Below are positions 1 through 13,367 of a stretch of 56,498 nucleotides of DNA, piece by piece. The DNA comes from Gammaproteobacteria bacterium. GTDB taxonomy: Bacteria > Pseudomonadota > Gammaproteobacteria > Steroidobacterales > PWYM01. Position numbers and translations under genes: made by a program. The stretch's first letter is position 1. Every line of letters begins with the position of its first letter. The stretch lies in the NCBI GenBank assembly GCA_007693855.1, contig RECU01000045.1, positions 78,536 through 135,033 of the forward strand. The letters run 5' to 3'. The notes beneath the pieces were generated by a model that saw only the letters and a program-made list of their open reading frames with translations, had not been told where the DNA came from and did not search any database.

Positions 1-381
1 GGCGAGGTGCGTCTCCGTCGCCCGCGTTCGCTGGGGCAGCGCCAGTGGCGCAAGCAGCGACGTCAACCGTTCCCGGTGATCGACAGTCGCCGCGTGCAGG
101 CGCTCGACGCGGGCCCGTCCCAGCGCGCCGAGATCAGGCGCGTCATTGGCCTCGGCGAGTCGCTGGGCATGCTGCCCCAACTGCACCAGCAGGAGTTCCA
201 GCCGATCCCGCCATTCGCCAAGTGTCGCCACCGGCTCGGCAAACAGGGCGGGCACACCGTCCAGCAGCGGGAAGACCACCTGGCCGCCCTGGTTGGTCAG
301 TCCCTGCGGATCAGCGCGCAGCTGTTCCCCGGTGCGCGGACAGGCGAGGAGGTCGAGAGGCAGGCTGGTGTTTGCAGTCAT
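1..381 (-). CDS. Trm112-like domain protein, 5' part (runs off the window)
   Basis: An uninterrupted reading frame starts at the ATG at 381 and is still open at base 1, giving 127 codons. The N-terminus (MTANTSLPLDLLACPRTGEQ) has the L-L-A-C-P-x-T-G pattern of Trm112/YcaR-type zinc-ribbon-like domains, continuing with 'VVFPLLDGVPALF', the usual end of that domain at about residue 50. Only the first Cys of a possible zinc site is evident, so metal binding is unclear. After it comes a charged, Leu/Arg-rich helical stretch. In other bacteria such a domain often precedes a SAM-dependent methyltransferase; the part that would show this lies outside the window, so the fusion is inference. The frame has no stop and fits the codon use of its neighbours, unlike the opposite-strand frames here. 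Confidence 0.7.
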   Translation of the reverse strand, partial: MTANTSLPLDLLACPRTGEQLRADPQGLTNQGGQVVFPLLDGVPALFAEPVATLGEWRDRLELLLVQLGQHAQRLAEANDAPDLGALGRARVERLHAATVDHRERLTSLLAPLALPQRTRATETHLA

Positions 382-463
382 GCCGCACATTATGACCCGA
401 CCGTCACGCGCAGTGTAGCGCCATGGCCGGTCGGGCCCGGGACCGTCGGCGGCGGGCGCGACT

Positions 464-2059
464 TCAGATCGTGCCGTTGACGATCGGCTGAAAGGCGGTC
501 AACTGGTCACGCAGGGTCGGACTGCCGAGGCCATGGCCGGGGAACAGACTGGGGAAGTTCGCCTGCTCGCCGTGCAGGGCCAGGTAGTTCAGTACGGTGA
601 GTTCGACCAGCTGATTGACGTTGTTGGCGGCCGGACTCGATGCGGTCTCCACCGAACCGTCGGGCCGGAACCAGCCGATCTGCTGGTGCCTGGCCTGTTG
701 CTCCGGCGTCGCGCCCAGCAGCTGTGGTCTGCCCCCAGGGTTGTAGACCAGGAAGAACGAGGCGGCCGTGGACTGGTTATCGCTGGTCCACTCACCCTTG
801 CCGCGGCCCTGCTCGGAGTTGTCGATGACACCGTTGCTGGAAAGCGATCCGTCGCTGAACACGTACATCATCAACGGCACGTTCATGCGGGCGGCGTACT
901 CAAGACACGCGCCCATGCACCGTCCAGCGCGCAGGTCGCGGACTTCGCCGAGTGCCCGTCGGCCACCGTGGTAGTCATAACCGCCCATGGTGATGCAGCC
1001 GGCGCCGGCGAAGCCGTTCATGACCAGCTTCATGACCGATGCCGTCTTCCGGAACTCTCCGTCGCTGTTGAATTCCTGTTCGCTGAAGATCCCGTTTGGT
1101 CCGACGATGTCCGGATCAAATGCGGGGTTGAGCGAGGATGGATCACCGAATCGGTCGGCGATGTCGGCGGAGCGCAGGTAGCCGCAGCGAACCAGGTCCT
1201 TGATCACGGCATCACGTGTGATCAGACCGGTATCGACGCGGTTGAGCTTGCTGTCGCTCAGCCGATAGATCGACTCCATCACGGCGACCGCGTCATCCTG
1301 GTCCAGCAGGCCGATGAGCTTGCCGGTGTCCACCAGGCCGGTGACGTCCGTCGGTCGGTCGACCTTGGTCGGGCGTACTTCGGGGTTGATCATGGCCATT
1401 GGTGCAAGCGAATTGCCGCCGGAGTCGGTCGGCCGCGAGCCGATCAGCGTCAGCAGCGACCCGTCTGCGCCTGCGCGGTGAATTCCGTAGAGCGGGTTGT
1501 GCGGATTGTTGCCGGTGTCATTCTCCGAGCGTGCGGGGATCAGCGCGCCGTTGACGTTACCGAACCGCCCGGCAGGGAGTTTGTCGACAATACCGCGCAG
1601 GAATGCGCTGTCCGAATGGAAGGCAAGCCCCAGCCGGTCATCGATGTATGCCGCACCGGTCAGCGGGTCATTCATCCGCGGCACCATGTCGCCTGGCAGG
1701 CCCTGGCGGCTGTAGCCCTGTGTACTGATGAAATCCAGCTGTCCGCCCTGACGCCCCCCCAGGACATTCGAACCGACCATGTTGGCGCCGCCGGCAAGGT
1801 CAAAGCAGATGAAGGGGATCTTGCCGGCACCCTGGACAGCGATTCCGCAGCTTTCCGTGAGCGACCGCAGATCTGGAGACAACTGCGCCCAGGCCGCTCT
1901 CGGATTGGCGAACAGACTGAACAGCCCGGCGCCCGCGATGGTGGCCGCTCCGGTCATGAAGCCCTGTGCGATCAGCTGTCGGCGGGTGATCGGCCGGGGA
2001 TGATCCGGGTGTCGCAGTGGCGCGTACCAGTCGTTGGTGTGCCTGCTTCGCCTTGTCAT
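464..2059 (-). CDS. Tat-exported DUF1501-like protein
   Basis: 531 residues. The N-terminus carries a twin-arginine signal (ITRRQLIAQGF, about residues 24-34) followed by a hydrophobic stretch and an A-W-A cleavage-like site near residue 58, so the folded protein should go to the periplasm. The body resembles the DUF1501 family, whose members have an alkaline-phosphatase-like fold: 'ICFDLAGGANMVGS' near residue 85 and a 'GGYDYHGGR' segment resembling the G-[FY]-D-[TY]-H motif. The ATG at 2059 follows GAGG 7 nt upstream. It is the last of three minus-strand genes coding exported proteins, 35 nt after the LamG diheme lipoprotein. In Planctomycetes, DUF1501 proteins commonly sit beside secreted cytochrome-domain proteins, which matches this context. 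Substrate and activity are unknown; the family call rests on weak motif similarity. Confidence 0.7.
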   Translation of the reverse strand: MTRRSRHTNDWYAPLRHPDHPRPITRRQLIAQGFMTGAATIAGAGLFSLFANPRAAWAQLSPDLRSLTESCGIAVQGAGKIPFICFDLAGGANMVGSNVLGGRQGGQLDFISTQGYSRQGLPGDMVPRMNDPLTGAAYIDDRLGLAFHSDSAFLRGIVDKLPAGRFGNVNGALIPARSENDTGNNPHNPLYGIHRAGADGSLLTLIGSRPTDSGGNSLAPMAMINPEVRPTKVDRPTDVTGLVDTGKLIGLLDQDDAVAVMESIYRLSDSKLNRVDTGLITRDAVIKDLVRCGYLRSADIADRFGDPSSLNPAFDPDIVGPNGIFSEQEFNSDGEFRKTASVMKLVMNGFAGAGCITMGGYDYHGGRRALGEVRDLRAGRCMGACLEYAARMNVPLMMYVFSDGSLSSNGVIDNSEQGRGKGEWTSDNQSTAASFFLVYNPGGRPQLLGATPEQQARHQQIGWFRPDGSVETASSPAANNVNQLVELTVLNYLALHGEQANFPSLFPGHGLGSPTLRDQLTAFQPIVNGTI

Positions 2060-2094
2060 GGACTTGCCTCGCGCGATACGTCGATGAATGGATG

Positions 2095-4548
2095 TCAGTG
2101 AACCAGCATGGCCGCGCTGCCAAGCACAGCCGCGCAGGTGGCCTTGCCGATCACTACCGTGCGGTCAGCCGGGCAGCTGCCGCCGCAGTTGTCGAGCCGG
2201 TCGATCAGGGCGTTGAGCTCGCCGCGGATCTCCGTGGCGCTGGGTTGCTGCTCGAGGCCAAGCCCGACCATGCGTGAGATCAGCGGATCGATCAGAAGAT
2301 CACGTCCGTTTCCAGCCAGCGCTGTGCCTGGGGCCGCCGAGAAATTGAACCCCGGGAAGTAGGCGCTTCGGCGTGTCTGATCCTCGAGCAGGGCGTTGCA
2401 GTACTCGATGGCGAGCTGAGTGACCCCGATCTGGTGAGCCGATACGAAGGTGTCAATTGCGGCAATCGAGGGCAGTTGCTGGCGGACCAGCCCAAAGGTT
2501 TCCTGGATGTCACCGGTGGTCTGCGGAATGCCTGTCACCACGGACATGGTCGCGTTGATCCGATCGAAGGTGCGAATCCCGATGCGCGAGGACGGCGTTC
2601 CATCGACGACGGCCGGTGGCTGCGGCGTGGGCTCGACAATGAAATTCGTGCTTGAGCCCAGCCGTTCGAAGCTGAGGAAGAATTCATCGATGTCGGGTCC
2701 GGCTTGCAGCCCGATGACTACGGCCTGCGGGGAGAGCAGTTGTCCGAAGCCGGGTTCGTAGTCCATACCGCCGAGCTGGGTGTCGAGCTTGGCAAACGCC
2801 TGGCCGACACTGCCGACGCTGCCGTTGACCCCGACCCGAAGGCCCTGTAGCGGAATACCTGCAGGTGCGGTATCGCTGCCCAGGACGATGAATCGTGGTT
2901 CAGCGAACAGGTAGGCATAGCTGTCGAACTGGCTGACCTCGATCAGGATATAGCTGTCAGCCTGGCCCACATGCTCGCTGACGTTGAAGAGCAGGAAGAA
3001 CTTCTCGCCCACGCCTGCTTCGGTGTTCTGCTCGATCTGTTCGGGCGTCAGTGCGCGGTTGTGGACCGCCACCAGGCGCAGCACACCCTCCCAGGGGGCG
3101 TCACCCGAAGGCTCGTTTCCAAGCACGAAAGCGAAACTGTCATCCCAGTCGTTCAGACTGCCACCGCCGCTGGGATCGGTCATGACTACGAGGTTGCCGT
3201 TGACAAAGATCTGTCGGCCGCCGACCGGATCGAAAGTGACCACCACATGCTGAAGGGTCGCTTGCAGCACCTCGTCGGCATCGCGGGTAGACAGGGCAGG
3301 CATCCCGTTGACGTCGGTCGTATCGCTCCGATTGAGGAAATCGTAGTTGTACATGGTCTGGCCGAGCGTGAAGTTACGGGCCATGGCGCCCGCCGAGTAA
3401 CTGACGATAGGCACCTCTTCCTGGTTGACATTGCCGGGAACGACCCAAGCCTCGATGGAGTACTCACCGGTGGCGCGAATCAGGTCATAGAGCTTGCGGC
3501 TGGCGGCAACACTCCCCTGGGCCTTACCTCCGCGCAGGTCGATGCCCCATCCGCCGAACCAGTCGAAATCGCCACTCAGGGTGAGATCGAGCGCTGGTTG
3601 CACGCCGCTGGTATCGAAGGCGCGGTTGCCACGGCCTTCCTTGAACTCCCAGAAACCGATCTGCGCCGCCTCATAGCGATTGCCGCCAGCGGCCACGATG
3701 CCGTCGGGCAGGCCGAGTGCCATGCTGACCACCAGGGAAGGATCGACCTGGCTGACCGGGATCATCGCCGCCATTGCCGCGATGGCATCCTCGAGGGCCT
3801 GACCATCATTACGGCAGTCGCCGCTCCAGCAGTTGTGGAACTCGTCACCGACGCGGACAACGAAACGCGAAATTCCGGGTGAATCGAGATTGATACGACT
3901 CCGGGCGGCGTTGTAAGCCGTGATGACGTCGCCATCGGCGAAAAAGGGTGCGACGCCGTTGGCGACCGAGCCGCTATGGCAGTCGGCGCAGAAGTCGCGG
4001 AGCAGGGGGAAGACGGTGGTCTGGAACGGCCCCGGATCGGCCGGCATCACGCGGCTGTCGGCCACTGTTCTCTGCACGGGAGGCACGAGCTCGATCTCGC
4101 GTCCCTGGTTGCCGTCACCGCCTGACCAGTTGCCGATCCAGGTGGTCATGATGTCGGCACACGCCTGGGTGCTCTCCAGCCAGCAGTTGTGTCCGTTCGC
4201 GACCATGCTCACCAGGACCGAGTCGCCCGGTGAGGTCAGGTTGACCAGCCCACCGACATCCTGATAAGCCAGGTTGACGTCATCGGTACGGGCGAATGTC
4301 GGCAGGGTGCCCCCGGTGCCGTGACAGTTTCCGCAGGTGTTCAGCGTGTTGACGTTTTCCCACAGATGCGTACGAAAAGCCTGTACTTCGGCGGTGGCGG
4401 GGGGGGGGCCGGCGTAGCCACCACTGCCAGGTGGCGCGACGATCGGGTTACTTTGGGTCTCCACGTCGCTGCCGCAGGCGGCGAGCAACGCGAGGGTGGC
4501 GCCGAGTGCGGCGGTTCGCAGATGCGATGTACGGCTCATCATGCTCAT
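2095..4548 (-). CDS. LamG-domain lipoprotein with two haem c motifs
   Basis: 817 residues from the ATG at 4548; further ATGs follow at 4542 and 4539. A signal peptide ends in the lipobox LLAAC, so the protein is probably a lipid-anchored periplasmic or surface protein. Two c-type haem motifs are visible: CGNCH at residue 72 and CADCH at residue 187, inside cytochrome-c-like segments. Residues about 365-515 form a LamG/concanavalin-like region (YSIEAWV, HVVVTFD, VAVHNRALTPEQI). The C-terminal 300 residues match nothing I recognise. Just after the lipobox, a run of ten identical bases (4399-4408) encodes Pro-Pro-Pro. The gene lies 22 nt after the monoheme protein and 35 nt before the Tat-exported protein, so one transcript is likely. 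A role as an electron-carrying surface protein that binds a polymer or partner through LamG is inference. Confidence 0.8.
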   Translation of the reverse strand: MSMMSRTSHLRTAALGATLALLAACGSDVETQSNPIVAPPGSGGYAGPPPATAEVQAFRTHLWENVNTLNTCGNCHGTGGTLPTFARTDDVNLAYQDVGGLVNLTSPGDSVLVSMVANGHNCWLESTQACADIMTTWIGNWSGGDGNQGREIELVPPVQRTVADSRVMPADPGPFQTTVFPLLRDFCADCHSGSVANGVAPFFADGDVITAYNAARSRINLDSPGISRFVVRVGDEFHNCWSGDCRNDGQALEDAIAAMAAMIPVSQVDPSLVVSMALGLPDGIVAAGGNRYEAAQIGFWEFKEGRGNRAFDTSGVQPALDLTLSGDFDWFGGWGIDLRGGKAQGSVAASRKLYDLIRATGEYSIEAWVVPGNVNQEEVPIVSYSAGAMARNFTLGQTMYNYDFLNRSDTTDVNGMPALSTRDADEVLQATLQHVVVTFDPVGGRQIFVNGNLVVMTDPSGGGSLNDWDDSFAFVLGNEPSGDAPWEGVLRLVAVHNRALTPEQIEQNTEAGVGEKFFLLFNVSEHVGQADSYILIEVSQFDSYAYLFAEPRFIVLGSDTAPAGIPLQGLRVGVNGSVGSVGQAFAKLDTQLGGMDYEPGFGQLLSPQAVVIGLQAGPDIDEFFLSFERLGSSTNFIVEPTPQPPAVVDGTPSSRIGIRTFDRINATMSVVTGIPQTTGDIQETFGLVRQQLPSIAAIDTFVSAHQIGVTQLAIEYCNALLEDQTRRSAYFPGFNFSAAPGTALAGNGRDLLIDPLISRMVGLGLEQQPSATEIRGELNALIDRLDNCGGSCPADRTVVIGKATCAAVLGSAAMLVH
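4399..4408. repeat. Ten-base G:C homopolymer inside the LamG lipoprotein gene
   Basis: Ten consecutive G on the plus strand (C on the coding strand) lie about 47 codons into the lipoprotein gene, just after the lipid-attachment Cys. The reading frame is open on both sides, so the gene as given is in frame. Runs of this length are prone to slipped-strand mispairing and also to sequencing error. Confidence 0.9.
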
Positions 4549-4570
4549 GGCGGCCTGTCCTCTCTCCAGC

Positions 4571-5779
4571 TCAGTCGGCACGACAGTAGGCGGCCGTTTC
4601 GGCAAACACCTGGCGCATGCGGTAATTGCTGCCGCGGAAACTCGTCACCATGCTGGCGATCTGTTGACGGTCGGCGGCGTCGGTCGGGGATCGCAGGCAG
4701 ACGGTCCGAAAGACTTTCTCGACCTGGCACTGTGCAAAGGCCTGGCTGTTCGCCAGTTCCTCGCCCATCGACTTGGCGCCATACCCCTCGCCCGTGCGAC
4801 CCGGATCCCATCCGAGCAGGGCGTTCTGCCCTTCCCGCCAGTAGTTGGCCCAGCTGGCATCCGTGGTCACGAAACCGAAGGGGAAGGTATCGGCATTGTT
4901 GAAATACTTCGGTCTGACCTGACCTGCCGAGTAGACGATCCGACGGGCGCTTTCATCCCAGTCGTAGTAGGCGTACGCCTGGGCCAGTGGATCCATGCCA
5001 GTGTGGCAACTCACGCAGTTGTTCAGGAACAGACGGCTGTCGCCCCCCGGGCTGCGCGAGACGTCCTGGCGGATACGGTCAGGCGAGCGTGTCGTGTCTG
5101 CCAGCTGCTCGAGATCCCGACACATATGTGCCATCAGCGTAAAACGCAGCATCGCCCGATTGGTGCCAGCGATGAAGAACGCTTCCGCGGCGGCACGCGT
5201 GGTCATGACCCCGGCTGTCGCCTCCGGCGGCAGGTCGGTCATGGCTGACTGGCTTCGCTGCTCGAGGTTTTCCATCAGGTTGACGTTCCGCCGCTCCAGC
5301 TCTTCGTAGTGCGCATTGCTGGTCATGGAGTAGGCCGGGATGCCAGCCAGGCCGTCGCGGCCTACGTAGACGATGTCCGCAGACAGCAGCTGGTTGAATG
5401 GCACATCGTCGCGAACCATGCCGATCACGGTCGCGATGTAATCGTTCAGTGGTACGAAGACATCTTCTTCCCGGTTGGTCCAGGGTGCTGCCCAGTTTTT
5501 CAGGGTGACGTCATAGAACGCGCGGTTCTCCATCGCCACATAGGCCGCGCCGATGGCGTCGCCACTGTTGATGAGGCTTGTCATCTGGTCCAGTACGGCA
5601 CTTGTCGGAGGTACGCCGGCAAGACGGTCATGAATGCGACGTGCTTCATCGCGCGGCGTCGCAAACGCCTGCACGATCAGTGCCAGTGCGAGATACACGC
5701 CCAATGCGAGTACCGCCGTGGACAGTCTGCCCCGGGGCCATCGCGTCGTCGTCCGGAGCTCATGCATGCCAGCTGTCAC
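4571..5779 (-). CDS. Membrane-anchored protein with one haem c motif
   Basis: 402 residues, starting at the GTG at 5779, which follows GAGGTGA with good spacing; an ATG four codons later is the alternative. One transmembrane or uncleaved signal segment (STAVLALGVYLALALIVQAF) lies near residues 20-40, placing the rest in the periplasm. A single haem motif, CVSCH, is at residue 255, followed by 'TGMDPLAQAYAYYDWDE', the G-M-D-P-L context of DUF1585/DUF1588-like and related secreted cytochrome-domain proteins. The C-terminus has three more Cys, two of them in CQVEKVFRTVC. It is the first gene of the minus-strand trio and is divergent from the HzsA-like gene across 200 bp. Electron transfer with the LamG protein downstream is inferred from the shared operon. 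Confidence 0.8.
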   Translation of the reverse strand: MTAGMHELRTTTRWPRGRLSTAVLALGVYLALALIVQAFATPRDEARRIHDRLAGVPPTSAVLDQMTSLINSGDAIGAAYVAMENRAFYDVTLKNWAAPWTNREEDVFVPLNDYIATVIGMVRDDVPFNQLLSADIVYVGRDGLAGIPAYSMTSNAHYEELERRNVNLMENLEQRSQSAMTDLPPEATAGVMTTRAAAEAFFIAGTNRAMLRFTLMAHMCRDLEQLADTTRSPDRIRQDVSRSPGGDSRLFLNNCVSCHTGMDPLAQAYAYYDWDESARRIVYSAGQVRPKYFNNADTFPFGFVTTDASWANYWREGQNALLGWDPGRTGEGYGAKSMGEELANSQAFAQCQVEKVFRTVCLRSPTDAADRQQIASMVTSFRGSNYRMRQVFAETAAYCRAD

Positions 5780-5979
5780 GTCGATTCACCTCGTGTCGAA
5801 TTGGGCTTGCCACAGACTGGAGTCCATTAAGCAAACGCAACTGCTGGTGGTTCTGTGACCGAGTTAACGTTTCTTCAGATCGCCATGGGGTTAAGTAAAA
5901 CGGCCGCTGTCTGAAGCGTTTTCCACGGTTCAGACTTCAGTCGTCGACGCAACGGCCGATAACTGAAGGGGCGACTAGG
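5780..5979. promoter_or_regulatory. Divergent intergenic region with CTTCAG/CTGAAG repeats
   Basis: These 200 bp separate the two divergent haem-protein operons and should hold both promoters. The hexamer CTTCAG or its complement CTGAAG occurs four times, at 5873-5878, 5911-5916, 5935-5940 and 5963-5968, in alternating orientation. The middle two lie in an inverted repeat, GTCTGAA (5909-5915) and TTCAGAC (5929-5935), with 13 nt between the arms. This looks like a binding-site array for a dimeric regulator controlling both operons; no regulator gene lies beside it. I see no convincing -35/-10 pair. Confidence 0.45.
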
Positions 5980-8667
5980 ATGCACGCGATGAAACCGATT
6001 CCGGGTGACTCGATGACCAAACGGATCACGCACACTAAAGCCGCAGCGATACTGTGCGCGATTGCGCTGGCTGGCTGCGGGGGTGAAGACGGCATCGGGC
6101 TTGCCGGCGGGCAGGGACCCGATCCGGTGGTTGTGGACGTCCCGATCGCCTACGTTCAGCGTCCGGTCCCGGTTGGGGCGCAGGGCATGCTGACGAACAC
6201 CGATGCGCGTCGACTGTTGGATCGTTTCGAATTGGGTGCGGATCTCATCATTCGGGAAAGGGCTTCACCCTCTGCCGCTGAAATCAACGTCACCGGGGCA
6301 CTGACTGAAGGCCTTTACGACATTCGTGATGTCAGCGTCTCATGGGACGGCGAGCGACTGCTGTTCTCGATGCGTGGCCCCTTTATAGCGGGTGCAGATC
6401 TGGAGGATCAGCCGACCTGGAATATCTGGGAATACCATCGTATCGATGAGCGCCTTCGCCGGATCATCACCTCGGAGTTGACCGCGGAATTAGGGCATGA
6501 TCTGGCACCTCATTATCTACCCGATGGCCGGATCATCTTCACATCCACCCGGCAGCGGGGTGGCAAGGCGATGCTGCTCGACGAGGGTAAGCCACAATTC
6601 GATGCCCTGGATGAGAATTTCAATGAACCGGCGTTTGTGCTGCACGTCATGAACGAAGACGGCAGCGAAATACGCCAGGTGTCTTTCAACCAGAGCCACG
6701 ACTTTTCGCCAAGTGTCCTGTCCAACGGTCAGGTGGTGTTCAGCCGCTGGGACCGTTACGGCTCCCGTAACGAAATCAGCCTCTATCGTATGAACCCCGA
6801 TGGTACCGGGCTCGAGCTGCTGTACGGGAAAAACAGCCGAGGTACGGGACAGGGCGGCACGGACGTGCACTTTCTGAAGCCGCGTCAGTTGCCCGATGGC
6901 CGGATTCTTGCACTCGCTCAGCCTTTTCAGACGAGTTATCTGGGGGGCGACCTGGTCCTGATCGATGTTGCGAACTACGTCGAGAATACCCAGCCGACCG
7001 CCGCCAATATCGGTGTCCTGAGTGGCCCGGCCCAGCAGTCTGGGACCGCTAACGTGGTGACACCGGGCGTGGGCCTTTCCCCCGGTGGGCAGTACAGCGC
7101 AGCATGGCCACTTGAGGACGGCACCGATCGAATGTTCGTGAGCTGGAGTCAGTGCCGGCTGATGGAGAACGGACGGATCGTGCCGTGTACGCCGGAGCGT
7201 CTGGAAGACCCTGCCGCCGTGCCCGCGCCGCCACTCTACGGGATCTGGATTTACGACCGACGTGAGGATACCCAGCTCCCAGTGCTGCTGCCGCGCGAAG
7301 GCGTGGTGTACTCGGAGGTCGTGGCGATGCAGGCGCGGCCCTTGCCCGGCATCGTTTTCGATCAGCTTGCCAGTGGTCAGGCGGACAGCCGGCTCGCCGA
7401 GCAGGGCCTTGGACTGCTGAACATTCGCAGCGTCCACGATGTACTCGGCGAAGACGTATCCGGCCCGGGCATCGAGGTTCTGGCGGATCCGGCGCAGCGC
7501 GGTTTTGCCGATCGACCGGTGGCGTGGCTTCGCGTGCTCAAGGCGGTCTCGATCCCTGATGAGGATGTGCGTGATTTCAACCGAGGCGCGGCCTTCGGCC
7601 GTGGTGGTGCGCGCGGTGGCATGCGCGAGATCATCGGCTATGCGCCGATCGAACCGGACGGCTCGGTCGTGGTGGCGGTGCCAGCGGATGTGCCCCTGTC
7701 GCTGTCAGTGCTCGATGGCGCGGGGCAGCGCGTTCGGGCTCGCCACCAGAACTGGTTGCAGGTCAGGCCCGGGCAGACCCTGAGCTGCAACGGCTGCCAC
7801 CAGCCAGGCACCGGACTGTCCCACGGGCGCCTGGATGCGTTCGACAGCGCCTGGGCAGGTGCGCCGTCGTCGAGTGTGCCGTTTCCGAACACGCAAGGGT
7901 CGTTGTTCGCCGATTTCGGCGAGACTATGGCCGAGGTCAAGGCCCGCATCAGCTGCGGCGTGGACGACTGTGCCGCCATCCGACCGAGCGTCGATGTGAT
8001 CTACGAGGACATCTGGACCGATCCTGTGGCTGCAGGCCGCGAACCCGATCCCTCGATTGCGTGGCGCTATGAAGACCTGGAGACGCCGGCGCCGGTGAGC
8101 GAGGCCTGCATGCAGCGGTGGACCGCCAGCTGCCGCACGGTGATCAATTACGAGACACATATCCAGCCGCTCTGGGAACTGGATCGTCAGGTGCTCGACG
8201 ATGATGGCGTCACGATACTGGTCGATCGGACCTGTACCAGCTGTCATTCCCGCACTGATGCCATGGGCGTGACCCAGCTCCCTGCCGCCCAGCTGGAGTT
8301 GACTGGCGACCCATCGCCTGCGCAGGCCCTGCAGTTCCGCTCCTATCGCGAGCTGTTGTTTCCCGACGTGCAGCTGGAGTTGGTGGAAGGGGCGCTGCAG
8401 ATCCGGCTGGTGGAACAGATCGATCCTGCCACAGGTCTTCCTGTGGTCGATGAGGAGACCGGCGAACCGATTCTTGTGACCGTCGGCGTGCAGCCCTCGA
8501 TGAGCGCTGCCGGGGCACGGGCCTCCGGACGCTTTCTGGGGATGTTCGCACCCGGTGGTGGTCATCCGGGCTGGCTGAGCCCCGCCGAGCTTCGCCTGGT
8601 GACCGAGTGGCTCGATATCGGGGCCCAGTACTTCAACAATCCTTTTGACGCGCCGGCGGAGGACTGA
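5980..8667 (+). CDS. HzsA-like beta-propeller lipoprotein with two haem c motifs
   Basis: 895 residues from the ATG at 5980, which has AAGGGG about 8 nt upstream; the ATG at 6013 would give a shorter, more typical signal peptide. The signal ends in the lipobox ALAGC, so the protein is lipidated. Residues about 100-350 have TolB/WD40-like propeller repeats (HVMNEDGSEIRQVSFN, LYRMNPDGTGLELLYG, 'LPDGRI' turns). Two haem motifs follow: C603-NG-C606-H607 and C752-TS-C755-H756, the second followed by a conserved-looking D-A-M-G. This arrangement matches proteins annotated as HzsA-related after the hydrazine synthase alpha subunit, but nothing here suggests anammox; no other hydrazine genes are present. 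The SH3/barrel gene follows after 7 nt. A periplasmic or surface electron-transfer role is inference. Confidence 0.75.
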   Translation: MHAMKPIPGDSMTKRITHTKAAAILCAIALAGCGGEDGIGLAGGQGPDPVVVDVPIAYVQRPVPVGAQGMLTNTDARRLLDRFELGADLIIRERASPSAAEINVTGALTEGLYDIRDVSVSWDGERLLFSMRGPFIAGADLEDQPTWNIWEYHRIDERLRRIITSELTAELGHDLAPHYLPDGRIIFTSTRQRGGKAMLLDEGKPQFDALDENFNEPAFVLHVMNEDGSEIRQVSFNQSHDFSPSVLSNGQVVFSRWDRYGSRNEISLYRMNPDGTGLELLYGKNSRGTGQGGTDVHFLKPRQLPDGRILALAQPFQTSYLGGDLVLIDVANYVENTQPTAANIGVLSGPAQQSGTANVVTPGVGLSPGGQYSAAWPLEDGTDRMFVSWSQCRLMENGRIVPCTPERLEDPAAVPAPPLYGIWIYDRREDTQLPVLLPREGVVYSEVVAMQARPLPGIVFDQLASGQADSRLAEQGLGLLNIRSVHDVLGEDVSGPGIEVLADPAQRGFADRPVAWLRVLKAVSIPDEDVRDFNRGAAFGRGGARGGMREIIGYAPIEPDGSVVVAVPADVPLSLSVLDGAGQRVRARHQNWLQVRPGQTLSCNGCHQPGTGLSHGRLDAFDSAWAGAPSSSVPFPNTQGSLFADFGETMAEVKARISCGVDDCAAIRPSVDVIYEDIWTDPVAAGREPDPSIAWRYEDLETPAPVSEACMQRWTASCRTVINYETHIQPLWELDRQVLDDDGVTILVDRTCTSCHSRTDAMGVTQLPAAQLELTGDPSPAQALQFRSYRELLFPDVQLELVEGALQIRLVEQIDPATGLPVVDEETGEPILVTVGVQPSMSAAGARASGRFLGMFAPGGGHPGWLSPAELRLVTEWLDIGAQYFNNPFDAPAED

Positions 8668-8674
8668 GTCTCCC

Positions 8675-9436
8675 GTGAACCTGATGCCTGTCCACGCTCT
8701 GCGACTGCTGCTCCTGGGTGCTGGCGTTTTCTTGCACTTCGTCACACCGGCGCAGGCGCGCGAGGCGCACTATGTGGTCGAGGTGGCCGAACCATTCCTG
8801 GAACTGCACAGCGGGCCGGGACGGGGCTATCCGAGGTTCCACATCGCTGAACGCGGAGAGCGGGTCGAGGTCCTCAGTCGGCGGACGGACTGGTTTCGGG
8901 TACGGACGGCCGGCGGGGTCGAAGGCTGGGCAAGTCGGGCCCAGGTCAGCCAGACCGTACGGCCTTCGGGAGAAGCGGTCAGCATCGCACCCCCGAGTCG
9001 ACTCGACTATCTCGACCGGCGGACCGAGGGTGGTGTGATGCTCGGCGACTTCGGGGGTGCGGACGTGCTCTCAGCGTATTTCGCCTGGCACGCAACGAGG
9101 AACCTGTCAGTGGAGTTGAGTGCATCAGATCTCAACGGGCGGTTCTCCAGCGGTTGGCTCGCGGGGCTCAATCTCGTACACCAGCCGTGGCCGGAGTGGC
9201 GGGTATCGCCGTTCCTGGCGCTCGGCACCGGCGTGATACGGGTCGAGCCACGGGCCACCCTGGTCGATGTGGAAGACCGTACGGACCAGGTCGGGCATGC
9301 AGGCCTTGGGCTGCGGATGCACGTGAGTCGTAATTTCATGCTACGGGCCGAGTATCGGCGATACGTGGTGTTCACCAGCCGCGACGAAAACGAGGACGTC
9401 AACGAATGGAAAGCGGGCTTCGGTTTCTTCTTCTGA
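8675..9436 (+). CDS. SH3-domain protein with C-terminal outer-membrane barrel
   Basis: 253 residues from the GTG at 8675, chosen because GGAGGA lies 11 nt upstream; the ATG at 8684 is too far from it. A signal peptide ends near TPAQA. Residues about 27-85 resemble a bacterial SH3b domain ('LELHSGPGRGYPRFHIAERGERVEVLSRRTDWFRVRT..GVEGWA'-type pattern). From about residue 110 to the end come alternating amphipathic strands, ending in GFGFFF with a terminal aromatic residue, typical of a small outer-membrane beta-barrel. The SH3 part would face the periplasm, possibly touching peptidoglycan or a partner. Its last 31 nt overlap the next gene, suggesting coupled translation. The specific partner is unknown. 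Confidence 0.7.
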   Translation: MNLMPVHALRLLLLGAGVFLHFVTPAQAREAHYVVEVAEPFLELHSGPGRGYPRFHIAERGERVEVLSRRTDWFRVRTAGGVEGWASRAQVSQTVRPSGEAVSIAPPSRLDYLDRRTEGGVMLGDFGGADVLSAYFAWHATRNLSVELSASDLNGRFSSGWLAGLNLVHQPWPEWRVSPFLALGTGVIRVEPRATLVDVEDRTDQVGHAGLGLRMHVSRNFMLRAEYRRYVVFTSRDENEDVNEWKAGFGFFF

Positions 9437-10074
9437 ATACGGTAGTCACGCTGTCACTCGCTGTGATGGCGGGTGGCTGCAGTCGCGTGGTGGATACGCT
9501 CGATGAGCCCAGTGCAGCCGAGCCGGTGATCGATCCGCGCGTTGAGCGTCGTGAAGTCCGACGTCCCCGGATCGATACCGAAAACTTCGAGCTCGGGGTG
9601 TATACGGGCTTCATCAGTGTCGAGGATTTCGGCAGCAGCACCGTGTATGGCGGCCGGCTTGCATACCACATTACCGAGGGGCTGTTTGCCGAGGCGACGA
9701 TCGGCCAGACCACCGCCGGGCGCACCAGCTTCGAAACCCTGAGCGGTTCGGTCGACCTGCTCACGCCGGATGAGCGCAGGTTCCGCTACTACGATCTTTC
9801 GCTGGGCTACAACCTGTTTCCAGGTGAGACGTTCATCGGACGAAATCGAGCGTTTACCTCATCGCTCTACCTGCTGCTTGGCGCAGGCAGTACGGAGTTT
9901 GCCGGTGACAGCCGGTTCACCATCAGCTTCGGTGCTGGCTATCGCGTGCTGCTGAATGACTGGCTGTCCGCCCACCTGATGGTACGGGACCACGTGTTCA
10001 GGACTGATCTTCTGGGTGAGGACAAAACGGTTCACAACATCGAGTTCGTGATCGGACTGGGCTGGTTTTTCTGA
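9406..10074 (+). CDS. Outer-membrane beta-barrel domain lipoprotein
   Basis: 222 residues. The signal peptide ends in the lipobox VMAGGC (Cys near residue 25), so the mature protein should be lipidated. The body has the strand pattern of the small barrel domain described in myxobacterial and other outer-membrane proteins (TIGR04565-like): 'FELGVYTGFISVEDFGSSTVYGG', 'YHITEGLFAEATIG', 'YDLSLGYNLFPGE', 'YLLLGAGSTEFAGD', ending IGLGWFF. It starts inside the end of the SH3/barrel gene (31-nt overlap) and is followed by the thioredoxin-like gene. Two consecutive barrel proteins behind a haem propeller suggest a shared outer-membrane assembly; this is inference. Confidence 0.75.
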   Translation: MESGLRFLLLNTVVTLSLAVMAGGCSRVVDTLDEPSAAEPVIDPRVERREVRRPRIDTENFELGVYTGFISVEDFGSSTVYGGRLAYHITEGLFAEATIGQTTAGRTSFETLSGSVDLLTPDERRFRYYDLSLGYNLFPGETFIGRNRAFTSSLYLLLGAGSTEFAGDSRFTISFGAGYRVLLNDWLSAHLMVRDHVFRTDLLGEDKTVHNIEFVIGLGWFF

Positions 10075-10118
10075 CCTGACCAGGATACGAACTCAGGATG
10101 CAACTCCAGGGAGCGACG

Positions 10119-10646
10119 ATGACAGACAAAGCCTATCTCGATCGCCGCGCAGTGTGCGCGATGCTTGCCACGGTGCCGCTTGCCGCGATACCGATGTCCG
10201 CAGCCCTCGCGCGTACCGCACAGAGCGGTCCGGCGCCGGACTTCACGCTACCTGTGCGCGGTGGCGGCAGCCTCAGCCTGAGTGACCTGCGCGGTGATGT
10301 GGTCATGATCAATTTCTGGGCAACCTGGTGCCCTCCCTGTCGCCAGGAAATGCCACTGCTCGACCAGATCCATCAGCGTTTCCAGCGGCTGGGCTTCAGT
10401 CTGCTGGGGGTGAACGTGGAGCAGGAGAACCGGCTGATCGATCGTTTCCTCGCCGAGGTGCCGGTGAGCTTTCCGATTCTGCTGGACACGAAAGAGGAAG
10501 TGGGCGCCCTTTACGGGGTGGCTGCCATGCCCACCACAATTCTGGTCGACCGCCAGGGCCAGCTGCGCGATCACTTTTTCGGTTACAAGCCGGGCGATGA
10601 ACAGAAGTATCAGGACGCGGTGCGCGCACTCGTCCGGGAGCGTTGA
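10119..10646 (+). CDS. TlpA-like thioredoxin-fold exported protein
   Basis: 175 residues from the ATG at 10119, which has GGGAG five nt upstream; the ATG at 10098 lacks a usable ribosome site. An N-terminal signal with RR (DRRAVCAMLATVPLAAIP) ends near residue 30, so it acts in the periplasm. The thioredoxin active site is WATWCPPC (about residues 65-72), followed by 'MPLLDQIHQRF' and the cis-Pro segment 'AMPTTILVD', as in the TlpA/ResA/DsbE family. It is followed after 2 nt by DUF4266 and then DUF3570, a recurrent trio. It may reduce disulfides of the Cys-rich DUF4266 protein or keep haem-site cysteines reduced in the upstream cytochromes; both are inference. Confidence 0.9.
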   Translation: MTDKAYLDRRAVCAMLATVPLAAIPMSAALARTAQSGPAPDFTLPVRGGGSLSLSDLRGDVVMINFWATWCPPCRQEMPLLDQIHQRFQRLGFSLLGVNVEQENRLIDRFLAEVPVSFPILLDTKEEVGALYGVAAMPTTILVDRQGQLRDHFFGYKPGDEQKYQDAVRALVRER

Positions 10647-10648
10647 TC

Positions 10649-10879
10649 ATGACCAGGTTCATGCGCTGTCTTCAGGTGCTGGCGATCACGCTGACGATCA
10701 GTGCCTGCTCGGGGATCCAGCCGTGGGTGCAACCCTACGAGCGCGACCGTCTGGCTGACCCGATCATGAGCTTTGAGCGCGATCCGGTGTCCGCGGCCTA
10801 TCTTCAGAAACTCTATGACATTCGCGAGGGTGCCCGTGGCGCGAGCGGTGGATCCGGTGGCGGCTGCGGGTGTAACTGA
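10649..10879 (+). CDS. DUF4266 small lipoprotein with CGCN tail
   Basis: 76 residues from the ATG at 10649, two nt after the thioredoxin-like stop. The signal peptide ends in ISAC, a lipobox, so the mature form is a short lipidated peptide of about 57 residues. The core 'WVQPYERDRLADPIM' is the DUF4266 signature, and the C-terminus is glycine-rich, ending GGGCGCN. Members of this family usually end in this Gly/Cys tail. Two cysteines spaced by one glycine could bind metal, form a disulfide for the neighbouring thioredoxin, or be modified; none is shown. DUF3570 begins one base after its stop. Confidence 0.9.
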   Translation: MTRFMRCLQVLAITLTISACSGIQPWVQPYERDRLADPIMSFERDPVSAAYLQKLYDIREGARGASGGSGGGCGCN

Positions 10880-10880
10880 A

Positions 10881-12050
10881 ATGAATCGTTCGGCAACCGA
10901 TCAGCATTCCGTACCCCGGTCACTGGCCTGCGTACTGTCCGCAGCGGTGCTGTGCGCTGCAGGTCATGCGAACGCAGCCGTCCTGCCCGAGGAACGCATG
11001 GATGTCCTCTACCACTATTATGAGGGCGGTGGCATCACGGTGGAGGGACCATCGGTACTGGTCCGCAAGCAGCTGGGCGAGAGTTTCTCGGTGCAGGCGA
11101 AATACCATGTCGACACCATCTCGGGTGCCTCGATTGACGTCATCACCACGGCCAGCCCTTACCGTGAGGAGCGCACGGAGCTGGCCGGCACGCTGGATTA
11201 CCTGAGAGGCGACACCCTGCTCAGTGTTGGCATCGTGACCAGTGACGAGAACGACTACAAGGGCCGATCGTTCAATATCGGTGTGAGCCAGGAAGTCTTC
11301 GCTGCAATGACGACCCTCAGTATGGGCTACGTTCGTGGCTCGGATGAAATTGGCCGCACCGGCGAGCCGGACTTCCGCGAAGAGCTGGACCGTCATTCCT
11401 GGCGCCTGGGCGTGACCCAGGTCGTCAGCCGCAATATGCTGGCCGAACTCGCCTTCGAAACCATCACCGACAAGGGGTTCCTGAATAATCCCTACCGGCA
11501 GGTGCGCTATCTCGATCCCGAGTCTGGCCGCGGTTACGGTTTCCAGGCCGAACTTTATCCCCGGCGCCGGACCAGCAACGCGGTGGCCCTGCGCGCGCGC
11601 TATCACCTGCCTTACCGTGCTGCAGTGCATGCTGAATACCGGTATTTCAGTGACGACTGGGGGATCGACGCGCATAGCACCAGGATCGGCTACACCCATG
11701 CGACCCTGCCGCGGGTGATTCTCGATCTGCAGTACCGCTATTACACTCAGGGGGCGGCGGATTTCTGGAGCGATCTGTATCCGTTTCGCAGTGCGCAGAA
11801 TTTTCTCGCGCGGGACAAGGAACTCAGCCGCTACGACAGCCATTCGGTGCGCATGGGTGTGAGCTATGAACTGTTCACGGCACGCTGGGCGATGTTCGAC
11901 CGCGGCACCGTGAACCTGACCTATGACTGGATCACCGCCGACTACCGTGACTTCCGGGATCTCCGGGTGAATGTCGATGTTCCAGGAGACGAGCCCACAT
12001 ACAGTCTTTCAGCCAACGTCTTCCAGGTCTTTTTTTCGTTCTGGTTCTGA
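10881..12050 (+). CDS. DUF3570 outer-membrane barrel protein
   Basis: 389 residues from the ATG at 10881, the first base pair after the DUF4266 stop plus one. A signal peptide ends at GHANA near residue 31. The mature part starts 'VLPEERMDVLYHYYEGGGITVEGPSVLVRK' in pattern and continues with long alternating strands, ending 'NVFQVFFSFWF' with a C-terminal aromatic as in outer-membrane barrels; this is the DUF3570 family. It closes the plus-strand operon. In other bacteria DUF3570, DUF4266 and a TlpA-like protein travel together, often with an ApbE flavin transferase, which is absent here. It may export, display or receive the DUF4266 lipopeptide; this is inference. Confidence 0.9.
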   Translation: MNRSATDQHSVPRSLACVLSAAVLCAAGHANAAVLPEERMDVLYHYYEGGGITVEGPSVLVRKQLGESFSVQAKYHVDTISGASIDVITTASPYREERTELAGTLDYLRGDTLLSVGIVTSDENDYKGRSFNIGVSQEVFAAMTTLSMGYVRGSDEIGRTGEPDFREELDRHSWRLGVTQVVSRNMLAELAFETITDKGFLNNPYRQVRYLDPESGRGYGFQAELYPRRRTSNAVALRARYHLPYRAAVHAEYRYFSDDWGIDAHSTRIGYTHATLPRVILDLQYRYYTQGAADFWSDLYPFRSAQNFLARDKELSRYDSHSVRMGVSYELFTARWAMFDRGTVNLTYDWITADYRDFRDLRVNVDVPGDEPTYSLSANVFQVFFSFWF

Positions 12051-12072: not shown

Positions 12073-12711
12073 TCAGTCGCCCCACAGTTCGTTCAGGCGA
12101 CGGTCACGCCCGCAGTTGAAGCGGTAGAATCGGTAGCGTACCGGGTTCTTGCGGTAGTAGTCCTGGTGATACTCTTCCGCGGGATAAAACGCGCTGCGTT
12201 CCCGAATCGGCGTGACGATCGGCTGATCGAAGCGCCCGGATGCTTCCAGTGCGGCAAGTGAGGCTTCGGCGAGGGTGCGTTGTTCGTCGTCGTCCACAAA
12301 GATACCGGTCAGATAGGCCTCACCGCGGTCGCAGAACTGCCCGCCATCGTCCAGCGGGTCGACGTTTCGCCAGAACACGTCGAGGAGCTGGGCATAATCG
12401 ATTACGTCGGGATCATAGACCACCTTCACCGCCTCGACGTGCCCGGTCCCGCCCCGGACCACCTGCTGATAGCTGGGATTGGAGACATGTCCGCCGATAA
12501 AGCCGGAGGTGGTGGAAACGACCCCCTCCAATTCATCGAAGGGCGGTTCCATGCACCAGAAACACCCGCCCGCGAAGACCGCGCTGGCCTGACCACCGTC
12601 AGTGGTGGTAGCCGAACTGCCGAGCACCGGGGCGCTGCTCGCCACCAGCGCGAGGGTGAGGGTGGTGCCGAGCACCGCAGGTAACAGCATCCGCAGCATC
12701 GACTGCATCAT
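12073..12711 (-). CDS. msrA: Exported peptide-methionine (S)-S-oxide reductase MsrA
   Basis: 212 residues. It reduces the S form of methionine sulfoxide in proteins. A signal peptide (about residues 1-30) places it in the periplasm. The catalytic motif GCFWC gives Cys50 as the nucleophile; downstream 'EGVVSTTSGFIGG', 'GHVEAVKVVYDP' and 'FWRNVDPLDDGGQFCDRGEAYLTGIF' are classic MsrA segments, and the C-terminal 'EEYHQDYYRKNP' is present. Its start overlaps the end of msrB by 4 nt, so the two are translationally coupled with msrB first. It is convergent with DUF3570, 22 nt away. Repair of oxidised periplasmic proteins fits the redox-rich genes next door. Confidence 0.95.
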   Translation of the reverse strand: MMQSMLRMLLPAVLGTTLTLALVASSAPVLGSSATTTDGGQASAVFAGGCFWCMEPPFDELEGVVSTTSGFIGGHVSNPSYQQVVRGGTGHVEAVKVVYDPDVIDYAQLLDVFWRNVDPLDDGGQFCDRGEAYLTGIFVDDDEQRTLAEASLAALEASGRFDQPIVTPIRERSAFYPAEEYHQDYYRKNPVRYRFYRFNCGRDRRLNELWGD

Positions 12712-13268
12712 CCGCGCAACTCCGGCAGTGGCTCAGTGTGGGGCACGAAGCGCAGCGCCACTCCGTTATTGCACCAGCGTTTGCCGGTCGGGCGGGGACC
12801 GTCGTTGAACACGTGCCCCTGATGTCCGCCGCAGCGCAGGCAGTGGTATTCCGTACGCGGTAGGATGAGTCTGAAATCCCGTTTCGTGCCGATATGGGCC
12901 TCGATCGCCGCCCAGAAACTCGGCCAGCCCGTGCCGCTGTCATACTTCGTGTCGGACTCGAAGAGGGGCAGGTGACAGGCGGCGCAGACGTAGGTGCCCT
13001 CGCGTGTCTCGTCGTTCAGCGGACTGGTGAACGGCCGCTCGGTGCGCTCCCGGAACAGCACATCCCAGGCCAGCCCGTCCACATAGCGCCGCCAGAAGTC
13101 AGCGGAGTGTCCGAGGCGCTGGATTTGGCCTTCATGGATCAGCATACGGGTAATGGCCTCGATATCGTGGGTGCCGGCGTCAGCGCTGGCTGAGCCCCAG
13201 GGGGCGGCTGCTCCCGCCGCCGCAACGGCGGCAATACCGCCCATGAACCCTCGTCTGTCCACGTCCAT
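12708..13268 (-). CDS. msrB: Tat-exported methionine (R)-S-oxide reductase MsrB
   Basis: 186 residues from the ATG at 13268, chosen because GGGAG precedes it and the twin-arginine signal (DRRGFMGGIAAVAAAG) then starts at residue 4; a longer frame upstream adds an Arg-rich stretch unlike any signal. It reduces the R form of methionine sulfoxide. Two CxxC pairs (CAAC, CLRC) form the structural zinc site, 'YDSGTGWPSFW' is the substrate-binding segment, and Cys166 in RWCNNG is the catalytic residue. Export by Tat suits a zinc protein folded before transport. Translationally coupled to msrA by a 4-nt overlap; together they repair both stereoisomers in the periplasm. Confidence 0.93.
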   Translation of the reverse strand: MDVDRRGFMGGIAAVAAAGAAAPWGSASADAGTHDIEAITRMLIHEGQIQRLGHSADFWRRYVDGLAWDVLFRERTERPFTSPLNDETREGTYVCAACHLPLFESDTKYDSGTGWPSFWAAIEAHIGTKRDFRLILPRTEYHCLRCGGHQGHVFNDGPRPTGKRWCNNGVALRFVPHTEPLPELRG

Positions 13269-13367
13269 ACTCCCGAACAGTCCTCTGCGAGACACTCTGA
13301 CCCGGGAGCGCCGCCGGCGGTTCCTCCATGGAGCCTGCCTCATGATACGATCGCGACCGGTTTCCGG

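Follow-up and report, generated by a model that had tools for sequence, protein, structure and literature searches.

A predicted haem-, flavin- and thiol-protein locus of Gammaproteobacteria and its association with an Agl-Glt-type motor core

Described systems closest to the locus

This report concerns nine consecutive genes, here called A to I, in a stretch of 56,498 nucleotides from a gammaproteobacterial genome (contig RECU01000045.1; the whole stretch is referred to as the window). Several described envelope systems resemble parts of this locus. First, the Agl-Glt core complex consists of aglR, aglQ and aglS with gltC, gltD, gltE and gltG, and is clustered in Gammaproteobacteria, where its function is unknown (Luciano et al. 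2011, PMC3169522). This core has been called a standalone basal transport machinery (Wartel et al. 2013, PMC3858216). Second, the Agl-Nfs spore-coat machine of Myxococcus combines a proton-driven motor of the same type with an outer cargo complex that can be exchanged (PMC3858216). Third, there are clusters of genes for ApbE, a DUF3570 protein, a thioredoxin-like protein and a DUF4266 protein, some with DsbD, and a DUF3570 protein is flavinylated by ApbE at two [ST]GA[ST] sites (Meheust et al. 2021, PMC8238504). Statements on these three papers refer to the portions of them drawn on here. Fourth, the PSCyt-PSD pairs of Planctomycetes and Verrucomicrobia place PSD/PSCyt-like and LamG haem proteins beside a conserved partner gene; for PSCyt proteins that also contain carbohydrate-binding domains, a link to carbohydrate metabolism has been drawn by context only (PMC5615132). 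Fifth, porin-cytochrome conduits of the MtrCAB type combine an outer-envelope barrel with haem proteins. A survey of the open-access literature returned no paper linking Agl-Glt in Gammaproteobacteria to redox proteins, and nothing on DUF1501 with LamG and cytochrome.

How does the locus compare with these systems? Two operons diverge: the minus-strand genes A, B and C span 464-5779, and the plus-strand genes D to I span 5980-12050. Judged by eye from the N-termini, all nine products have export features: there is an RR motif in A, a lipobox in B, D, F and H, and a hydrophobic N-terminus in C, E, G and I. The original prediction described this layout correctly, together with five CXXCH motifs in three proteins, a LamG domain, a propeller, three barrels, a TlpA-like thioredoxin and a Gly/Cys-tailed lipopeptide, all of which are found, the domains by family scans. 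It also treated the nine genes as a candidate undescribed system lacking a recognisable terminal oxidoreductase, and here the comparison leads elsewhere. H and I belong to the published DUF4266/DUF3570 pair associated with ApbE flavinylation (PMC8238504), and the block belongs to a larger set, together with ApbE and an ExbB/ExbD/AgmX-PglI machine of Agl-Glt core type. Genes A to C, genes D to I and this Agl-Glt-type core very probably constitute one gene system.

Co-occurrence of the two operons and the motor core

The recurrence of the locus was followed in a class sample of 229 Gammaproteobacteria genomes, near one per family and drawn evenly over the class, many of them metagenome assemblies. 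Thirty-three of these carry a D-I operon (the system genomes) and 196 do not. A named set of the 80 best named relatives was chosen by similarity and is less independent than the class sample. Families were matched by Pfam and NCBIfam scans with their own cut-offs, and the neighbourhoods of HZS_alpha matches were inspected up to 20 kilobases. An unsupervised cluster scan of neighbours was disregarded, as most of its recurring "families" were shadow open reading frames. HZS_alpha, a domain of protein D, is present in 35 of the 229 genomes and DUF4266, the family of protein H, in 55; among 299 genomes drawn from the phylum, HZS_alpha exceeds its cut-off only within Gammaproteobacteria. The window genome has a single copy each of HZS_alpha, DUF4266, DUF3570 and the AgmX/PglI tail.

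The two divergent operons recur together. Among D loci of the class draw with enough flank, E to I are present in 25/25 and A to C in 17/25, and the locus occurs under 23 family labels. The named set gives the order A<B<C<D>E..I> in 53 of 55 loci with enough flank. A protein search finds A in 28/33 genomes with the D-I operon and in 5/196 without it (Fisher ~7e-26, with no correction for phylogeny). In five genomes that were inspected (G044, G214, G075, G203 and G197), A to C lie away from D, as an intact C-B-A operon elsewhere. Chance adjacency of the two operons is ruled out by this co-occurrence, which holds also where A to C are unlinked. The original prediction of one envelope system is thus well supported: the operons keep company, linked or unlinked, in gammaproteobacteria of many families rather than occurring independently, and the Cys-His motifs are conserved.

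The motor genes of the window genome lie on another contig, C58, where a gene for ApbE and a gene for a second TlpA protein are followed by nine genes designated y, 1, 2, 3, 4, R, Q, S and J. Their make-up fits an Agl-Glt core complex, a proton-driven relative of the Myxococcus gliding motor, as far as family models can tell. R is a MotA/TolQ/ExbB protein (PF01618, 101 bits), and Q and S are ExbD/TolR proteins (PF02472, 57 and 56 bits). J is TonB-like with an AgmX/PglI C-terminal domain (NF033768, 66.1 bits, cut-off 40) and scores 40.6 against the full GltG model, for which the cut-off is 650. Genes 1, 2 and 3 encode tetratricopeptide repeat (TPR) proteins that stand where GltC, GltD and GltE would be expected, the match to the GltE model being weak (33 bits, cut-off 225); y and 4 encode secreted proteins of 190 and 158 residues, respectively. 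An ExbB-like R, ExbD-like Q and S, a GltG-like J, and large and small TPR proteins, all in one cluster, are features in common with the described core (PMC3169522). The present system differs from it in having a redox outer module, and the Myxococcus motility proteins GltA/B/H-K were not identified. IS66-type transposase-like genes are seen by eye beside the C58 core cluster (L177, near 5727-6418); such genes are a possible agent of the separation of the core from the redox locus.

In relatives, the redox genes and the motor genes can form a single run, with the order A< B< C< D> E> F> G> H> I> (ApbE>) y> 1> 2> 3> 4> R> Q> S> J>. The genes from y to J directly follow the redox genes in G080, G126, G157, G205, G014, G139 and G045, with one or two members missing in some, and the contiguous loci are L178, L180, L185-L188 and L210. 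A gene with an AgmX/PglI tail over the cut-off occurs in 31/33 system genomes and in 23/196 others. ApbE genes stand beside many relatives' loci and are present in 33/33 system genomes (164/229 overall); the window genome has two, both unlinked to the window.

Predicted haem, flavin and thiol proteins

The proteins of the putative flavinylation pair, H and I, are encoded at the end of the D-I operon. H (10649..10879, plus strand) is a DUF4266 lipopeptide (PF14086, 2.5e-21; 76.8 bits, cut-off 27) ending in GGGCGCN, with a C-terminal CXC motif at 10865..10873 whose C73, G74 and C75 are each kept in at least 95% of 29 relatives. I (10881..12050, plus strand) is a DUF3570 outer-membrane barrel of 16 strands (PF12094, 2.5e-44; 152 bits, cut-off 25); its start had been placed at 10773 and is most likely the ATG at 10881. 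Counting from that ATG, I has two predicted flavinylation sites of acceptor type, one SGAS and one TTAS: DTISGAS with Ser84 (11112..11132) and DVITTAS with Ser92 (11136..11156). Among D-linked DUF3570 proteins, 97/99 carry the pattern Dxx[ST]xA[STG], and 78/99 carry two or more such sites. Flavinylation of I by ApbE is probable, as judged from these motifs and the family. The predicted structure of I has a predicted local distance difference test (pLDDT) score of 85. Both sites lie in or at the loop that joins strands 3 and 4, where the score is lower. Structure comparison gives outer-membrane barrel matches only and singles out no closer family, although a closer one may exist. By the usual topology the loop would face outward, since it is the odd-numbered loops that are long, the even-numbered turns being short. 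ApbE is periplasmic, so that I would be flavinylated before insertion of the barrel. Because H and I represent a known ApbE-flavinylation pair, flavins probably join the five haems of the locus. H and I also look like partners: G017, from the same order as the window genome, encodes a fusion of the two (L191, plus strand 12941-14242), from which the CXC tail and both flavin sites have been lost together, and D and A to C are absent there.

Three further genes of the operon encode two barrels and a thioredoxin. E (8645..9436, plus strand) joins an SH3 domain (PF08239, 2e-10) to an outer-membrane beta-barrel (PF13505, 2.3e-7). F (9406..10074, plus strand) has a lipobox and an outer-membrane barrel of TIGR04565 (OMP_myx_plus) type (1.4e-47; 161.7 bits, cut-off 60). 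Neither E nor F matches any NCBIfam gliding model. G (10098..10646, plus strand) is a TlpA-like periplasmic thioredoxin (PF00578, AhpC-TSA, 1.1e-28) with a WCPPC motif, both Cys of which are kept in at least 95% of relatives. DsbD is encoded elsewhere in the window genome. The locus thus shares with the published DUF3570/DUF4266/ApbE clusters a barrel, a CXC-tailed DUF4266 protein, a thioredoxin, ApbE and two sites in tandem, here predicted ones (PMC8238504). Compared with those clusters, it adds D, the E and F barrels and A to C, does not have DsbD adjacent, has relatives whose sites are mostly SSAS and TTAS, and is linked to an Agl-Glt-type core.

The haem proteins are D, B and C, which likely carry haem c on the evidence of their motifs. 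D (5980..8667, plus strand) is a lipoprotein with a PD40 beta-propeller (3.2e-6), an HZS_alpha middle domain (PF18582, 7.8e-16; 58.9 bits, cut-off 26.6) and a C-terminal haem domain. Its motifs are CNGCH at residues 603-607 (7786..7800; kept in 37/37 relatives) and CTSCH at residues 752-756 (8233..8247; kept in 35/37). B (2095..4605, minus strand) is a lipoprotein with a LamG (ConA-like) domain (PF13385, 3e-19) and two motifs, CGNCH at residues 91-95 (4321..4335) and CADCH at residues 206-210 (3976..3990), both kept in 19/20 relatives. C (4571..5779, minus strand) is an anchored or secreted protein with one motif, CVSCH, at residues 255-259 (5003..5017; kept in 21/21 relatives). The C-terminus of C is PSD2/PSCyt3-like at scores below the Pfam cut-offs (PF07624, 8.6e-5; PSD2 22.6 against 25.8 bits, PSCyt3 12.1 against 27).

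Differences in the length of D suggest how two of these proteins may be related. In eight loci, D has an extra C-terminal haem domain, which profile comparison matches to the second such domain of B with a probability of 97%. All eight lack A to C, whereas 92/92 D proteins with linked B and C are short, and all five system genomes without any A carry the long D. Since the B-like domain is fused to D only in loci without A to C, the comparison suggests that the haem domain of B works against D. Other variants of D were seen as well. D of L045 (G036:C66) has a large insert after haem motif 1 that resembles a repeat or adhesion domain. A to C are present without D in L164 (G035), and with D split in two frames in L219 (G034), through loss or sequencing error. 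HZS_alpha proteins of another group, which are larger or divergent (L070-L076, in G066, G139, G197, G201, G081 and G064), have no E-I neighbours, which indicates that the HZS_alpha family has other contexts.

A (464..2059, minus strand), 52-70% identical to its relatives in the class sample, had been described as a Tat-exported DUF1501-like protein. The RR motif is as expected for twin-arginine translocation (Tat) export, and DUF1501-like remains a fair description because of a predicted alkaline-phosphatase-superfamily fold and a GGYDYH motif; family scans give no Pfam or NCBIfam match at all, DUF1501 included. The predicted structure (pLDDT 80) is closest to phosphatases and sulfatases (best Z 12.4, root-mean-square deviation 4.9 over 240 residues). 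Fold matches within the superfamily include sulfatases and phosphodiesterases, and the comparison singles out no family closer than the superfamily, although a closer one may exist. The fold agrees with a DUF1501-like assignment and names no activity. The planctomycete PSCyt/DUF1501 pair has an alkaline-phosphatase-superfamily partner that A matches in predicted fold, but the Pfam cut-offs for PSCyt, PSD and DUF1501 are not reached. Similarly, the likeness of genes A to C to PSCyt-PSD pairs (PMC5615132) extends to sub-threshold PSD2/PSCyt3 matches only, and A to C form a conserved three-gene set, usually one per genome.

A possible motor-driven redox machine and its alternatives

What could such a gene set do? 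We give an even chance to the reading that the nine genes encode the outer, redox-active portion of a single machine that spans the envelope and is driven by a proton motor. In such a machine, ApbE probably attaches flavin mononucleotide (FMN) to the DUF3570 barrel, using two sites of a single loop that strand parity places on the outer side. Reducing equivalents would then pass from DsbD to the TlpA proteins, the DUF4266 CXC tail, the barrel flavins and finally D, B and C, or in the reverse direction. The motor formed by R, Q and S would use the TonB-like J and the TPR scaffold to move or remodel the outer complex. The target of the motor would probably be a surface polymer touched by the LamG protein and the phosphatase/sulfatase-fold protein; a polymer is suggested by the LamG domain of B and the fold of A. 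The earlier idea that electrons move between periplasm and cell surface is plausible and is strengthened by the predicted flavin sites, but it is not shown. We regard it as possible, somewhat short of an even chance, that this is an undescribed class of envelope machine, an Agl-Glt-type motor with haem, flavin and thiol outer cargo in which mechanical work and electron transfer are coupled at the cell surface. That electron transfer to or from the surface is coupled to the motor is a tentative proposal, which we lean towards doubting. The Agl-Nfs machine offers a parallel in its motor and its exchangeable cargo but differs in that the portions of its description drawn on here mention no haem or flavin cargo (PMC3858216).

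Several points weigh against joining the parts in this way. First, among tail-bearing genomes, 10/54 lack both DUF4266 and HZS matches. Because the core also occurs alone, it is separable from the redox genes, which often accompany it as a partner module without being an obligate part. Second, redox locus and core are on different contigs in the window genome; a contig-edge artefact is an unlikely cause of this split, as both clusters lie inside contigs with genes on both sides. Third, the Agl-Glt identity of the core rests on family models and architecture, without Myxococcus sequences. Fourth, the co-occurrence statistics treat genomes as independent. Fifth, the fusion of the B-like domain to D probably reflects one event, not eight independent cases. 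Sixth, the flavin sites of relatives mostly depart from the tested [ST]GA[ST] form, with Asp, Ala and Ser kept. Lastly, the system has no known donor-acceptor pair, substrate or phenotype.

The first two points also favour the alternative that the redox genes encode an outer-membrane respiratory electron conduit, extracellular or at the surface, that is simply encoded beside a motor with an independent job, such as envelope upkeep. Five haems, two predicted outer-loop flavin sites and thiol carriers would suit a conduit. Yet 31 of 33 system genomes have the tail gene, and motor and redox genes are repeatedly found side by side in many families; this argues for a closer relationship, and there is no multihaem wire of the MtrA/MtrC type: in contrast to MtrCAB-like conduits, proteins of the present system have one to three haems, with at most three CXXCH each. 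A multihaem conduit is ruled out by these counts, and we consider the more general conduit unlikely.

It is similarly improbable that the system is a surface-polymer machine in which the haem and flavin proteins oxidise or cross-link a polysaccharide moved by the motor, in the manner of the Agl-Nfs spore-coat glycan. This would account for the LamG domain of B and the sulfatase/phosphatase fold of A, and it has precedents in the movement of glycan strands by Agl-Nfs (PMC3858216) and in the proposed role of PSCyt proteins with carbohydrate-binding domains in carbohydrate metabolism (PMC5615132). However, the clusters inspected include no glycoside hydrolase, lyase or polymer synthase recurring beside the locus, and any activity of A would be read from its predicted fold only, catalytic residues aside.

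TlpA proteins usually act in maturation, and the thiol and haem proteins might accordingly serve in assembly or maturation of an outer-membrane complex, through disulfide formation or cofactor insertion, with no electron path to a substrate, and DsbD-fed clusters of thioredoxin, DUF3570 and DUF4266 genes are published (PMC8238504). This explanation leaves the conserved haems of B, C and D and the pair of flavin-type sites in the loop of the barrel unaccounted for, and we consider it very unlikely.

Least probable by far, to the point of being negligible, is that D is a hydrazine-synthase-like nitrogen enzyme: HZS_alpha is over its cut-off, the sole PDB relative of the D profile is hydrazine synthase alpha (5c2v/5c2w) and the layout of propeller, middle domain and C-terminal haem domain is common to both, but the Tyr at +4 from the haem-1 His is found in 0/111 D relatives, D scores 51.6 bits against a cut-off of 800 for the NCBIfam hydrazine_alpha equivalog, and no HzsB/HzsC partner is among the recurring neighbours inspected, the genome itself not having been searched for HzsB/HzsC. 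The residue in question is Tyr591 of hydrazine synthase alpha, four residues after the haem-1 His, which we take to be an axial haem ligand in the 2015 structure. Identity of D as hydrazine synthase is ruled out by the missing Tyr together with the equivalog score.

What follows for the motor-driven redox machine? The Agl-Glt core was described in Gammaproteobacteria in 2011 and the DUF3570 flavoprotein barrel in 2021, yet the core has had no assigned function and the barrel no acceptor. Both turn out to recur within a single set of genes, which also contains HzsA-like and PSCyt-like haem sets that were previously unexplained. Each part hence becomes testable through the others. If motor and redox proteins do form one machine, the core complex of Gammaproteobacteria would gain a function. 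Electron transfer coupled to a proton-driven surface motor, if true, would be a new principle for bacterial surfaces.

Genes flanking the locus

Both ends of the locus have neighbours. The 5' part of a gene for an S-adenosylmethionine (SAM)-dependent methyltransferase (1..390, minus strand) continues outside the window; the whole gene is L004:17544-18926. It lies directly downstream of A in the same direction and is an optional fourth gene of the A-C operon: its cluster is present in 28/122 D loci, and one relative matches CARME/Methyltransf_11. On the other side, at 12073-13343 and on the opposite strand, genes for an MsrA-like and a Tat-type MsrB-like methionine sulfoxide reductase, both apparently exported, lie immediately beside the locus, as judged by eye from their translations.

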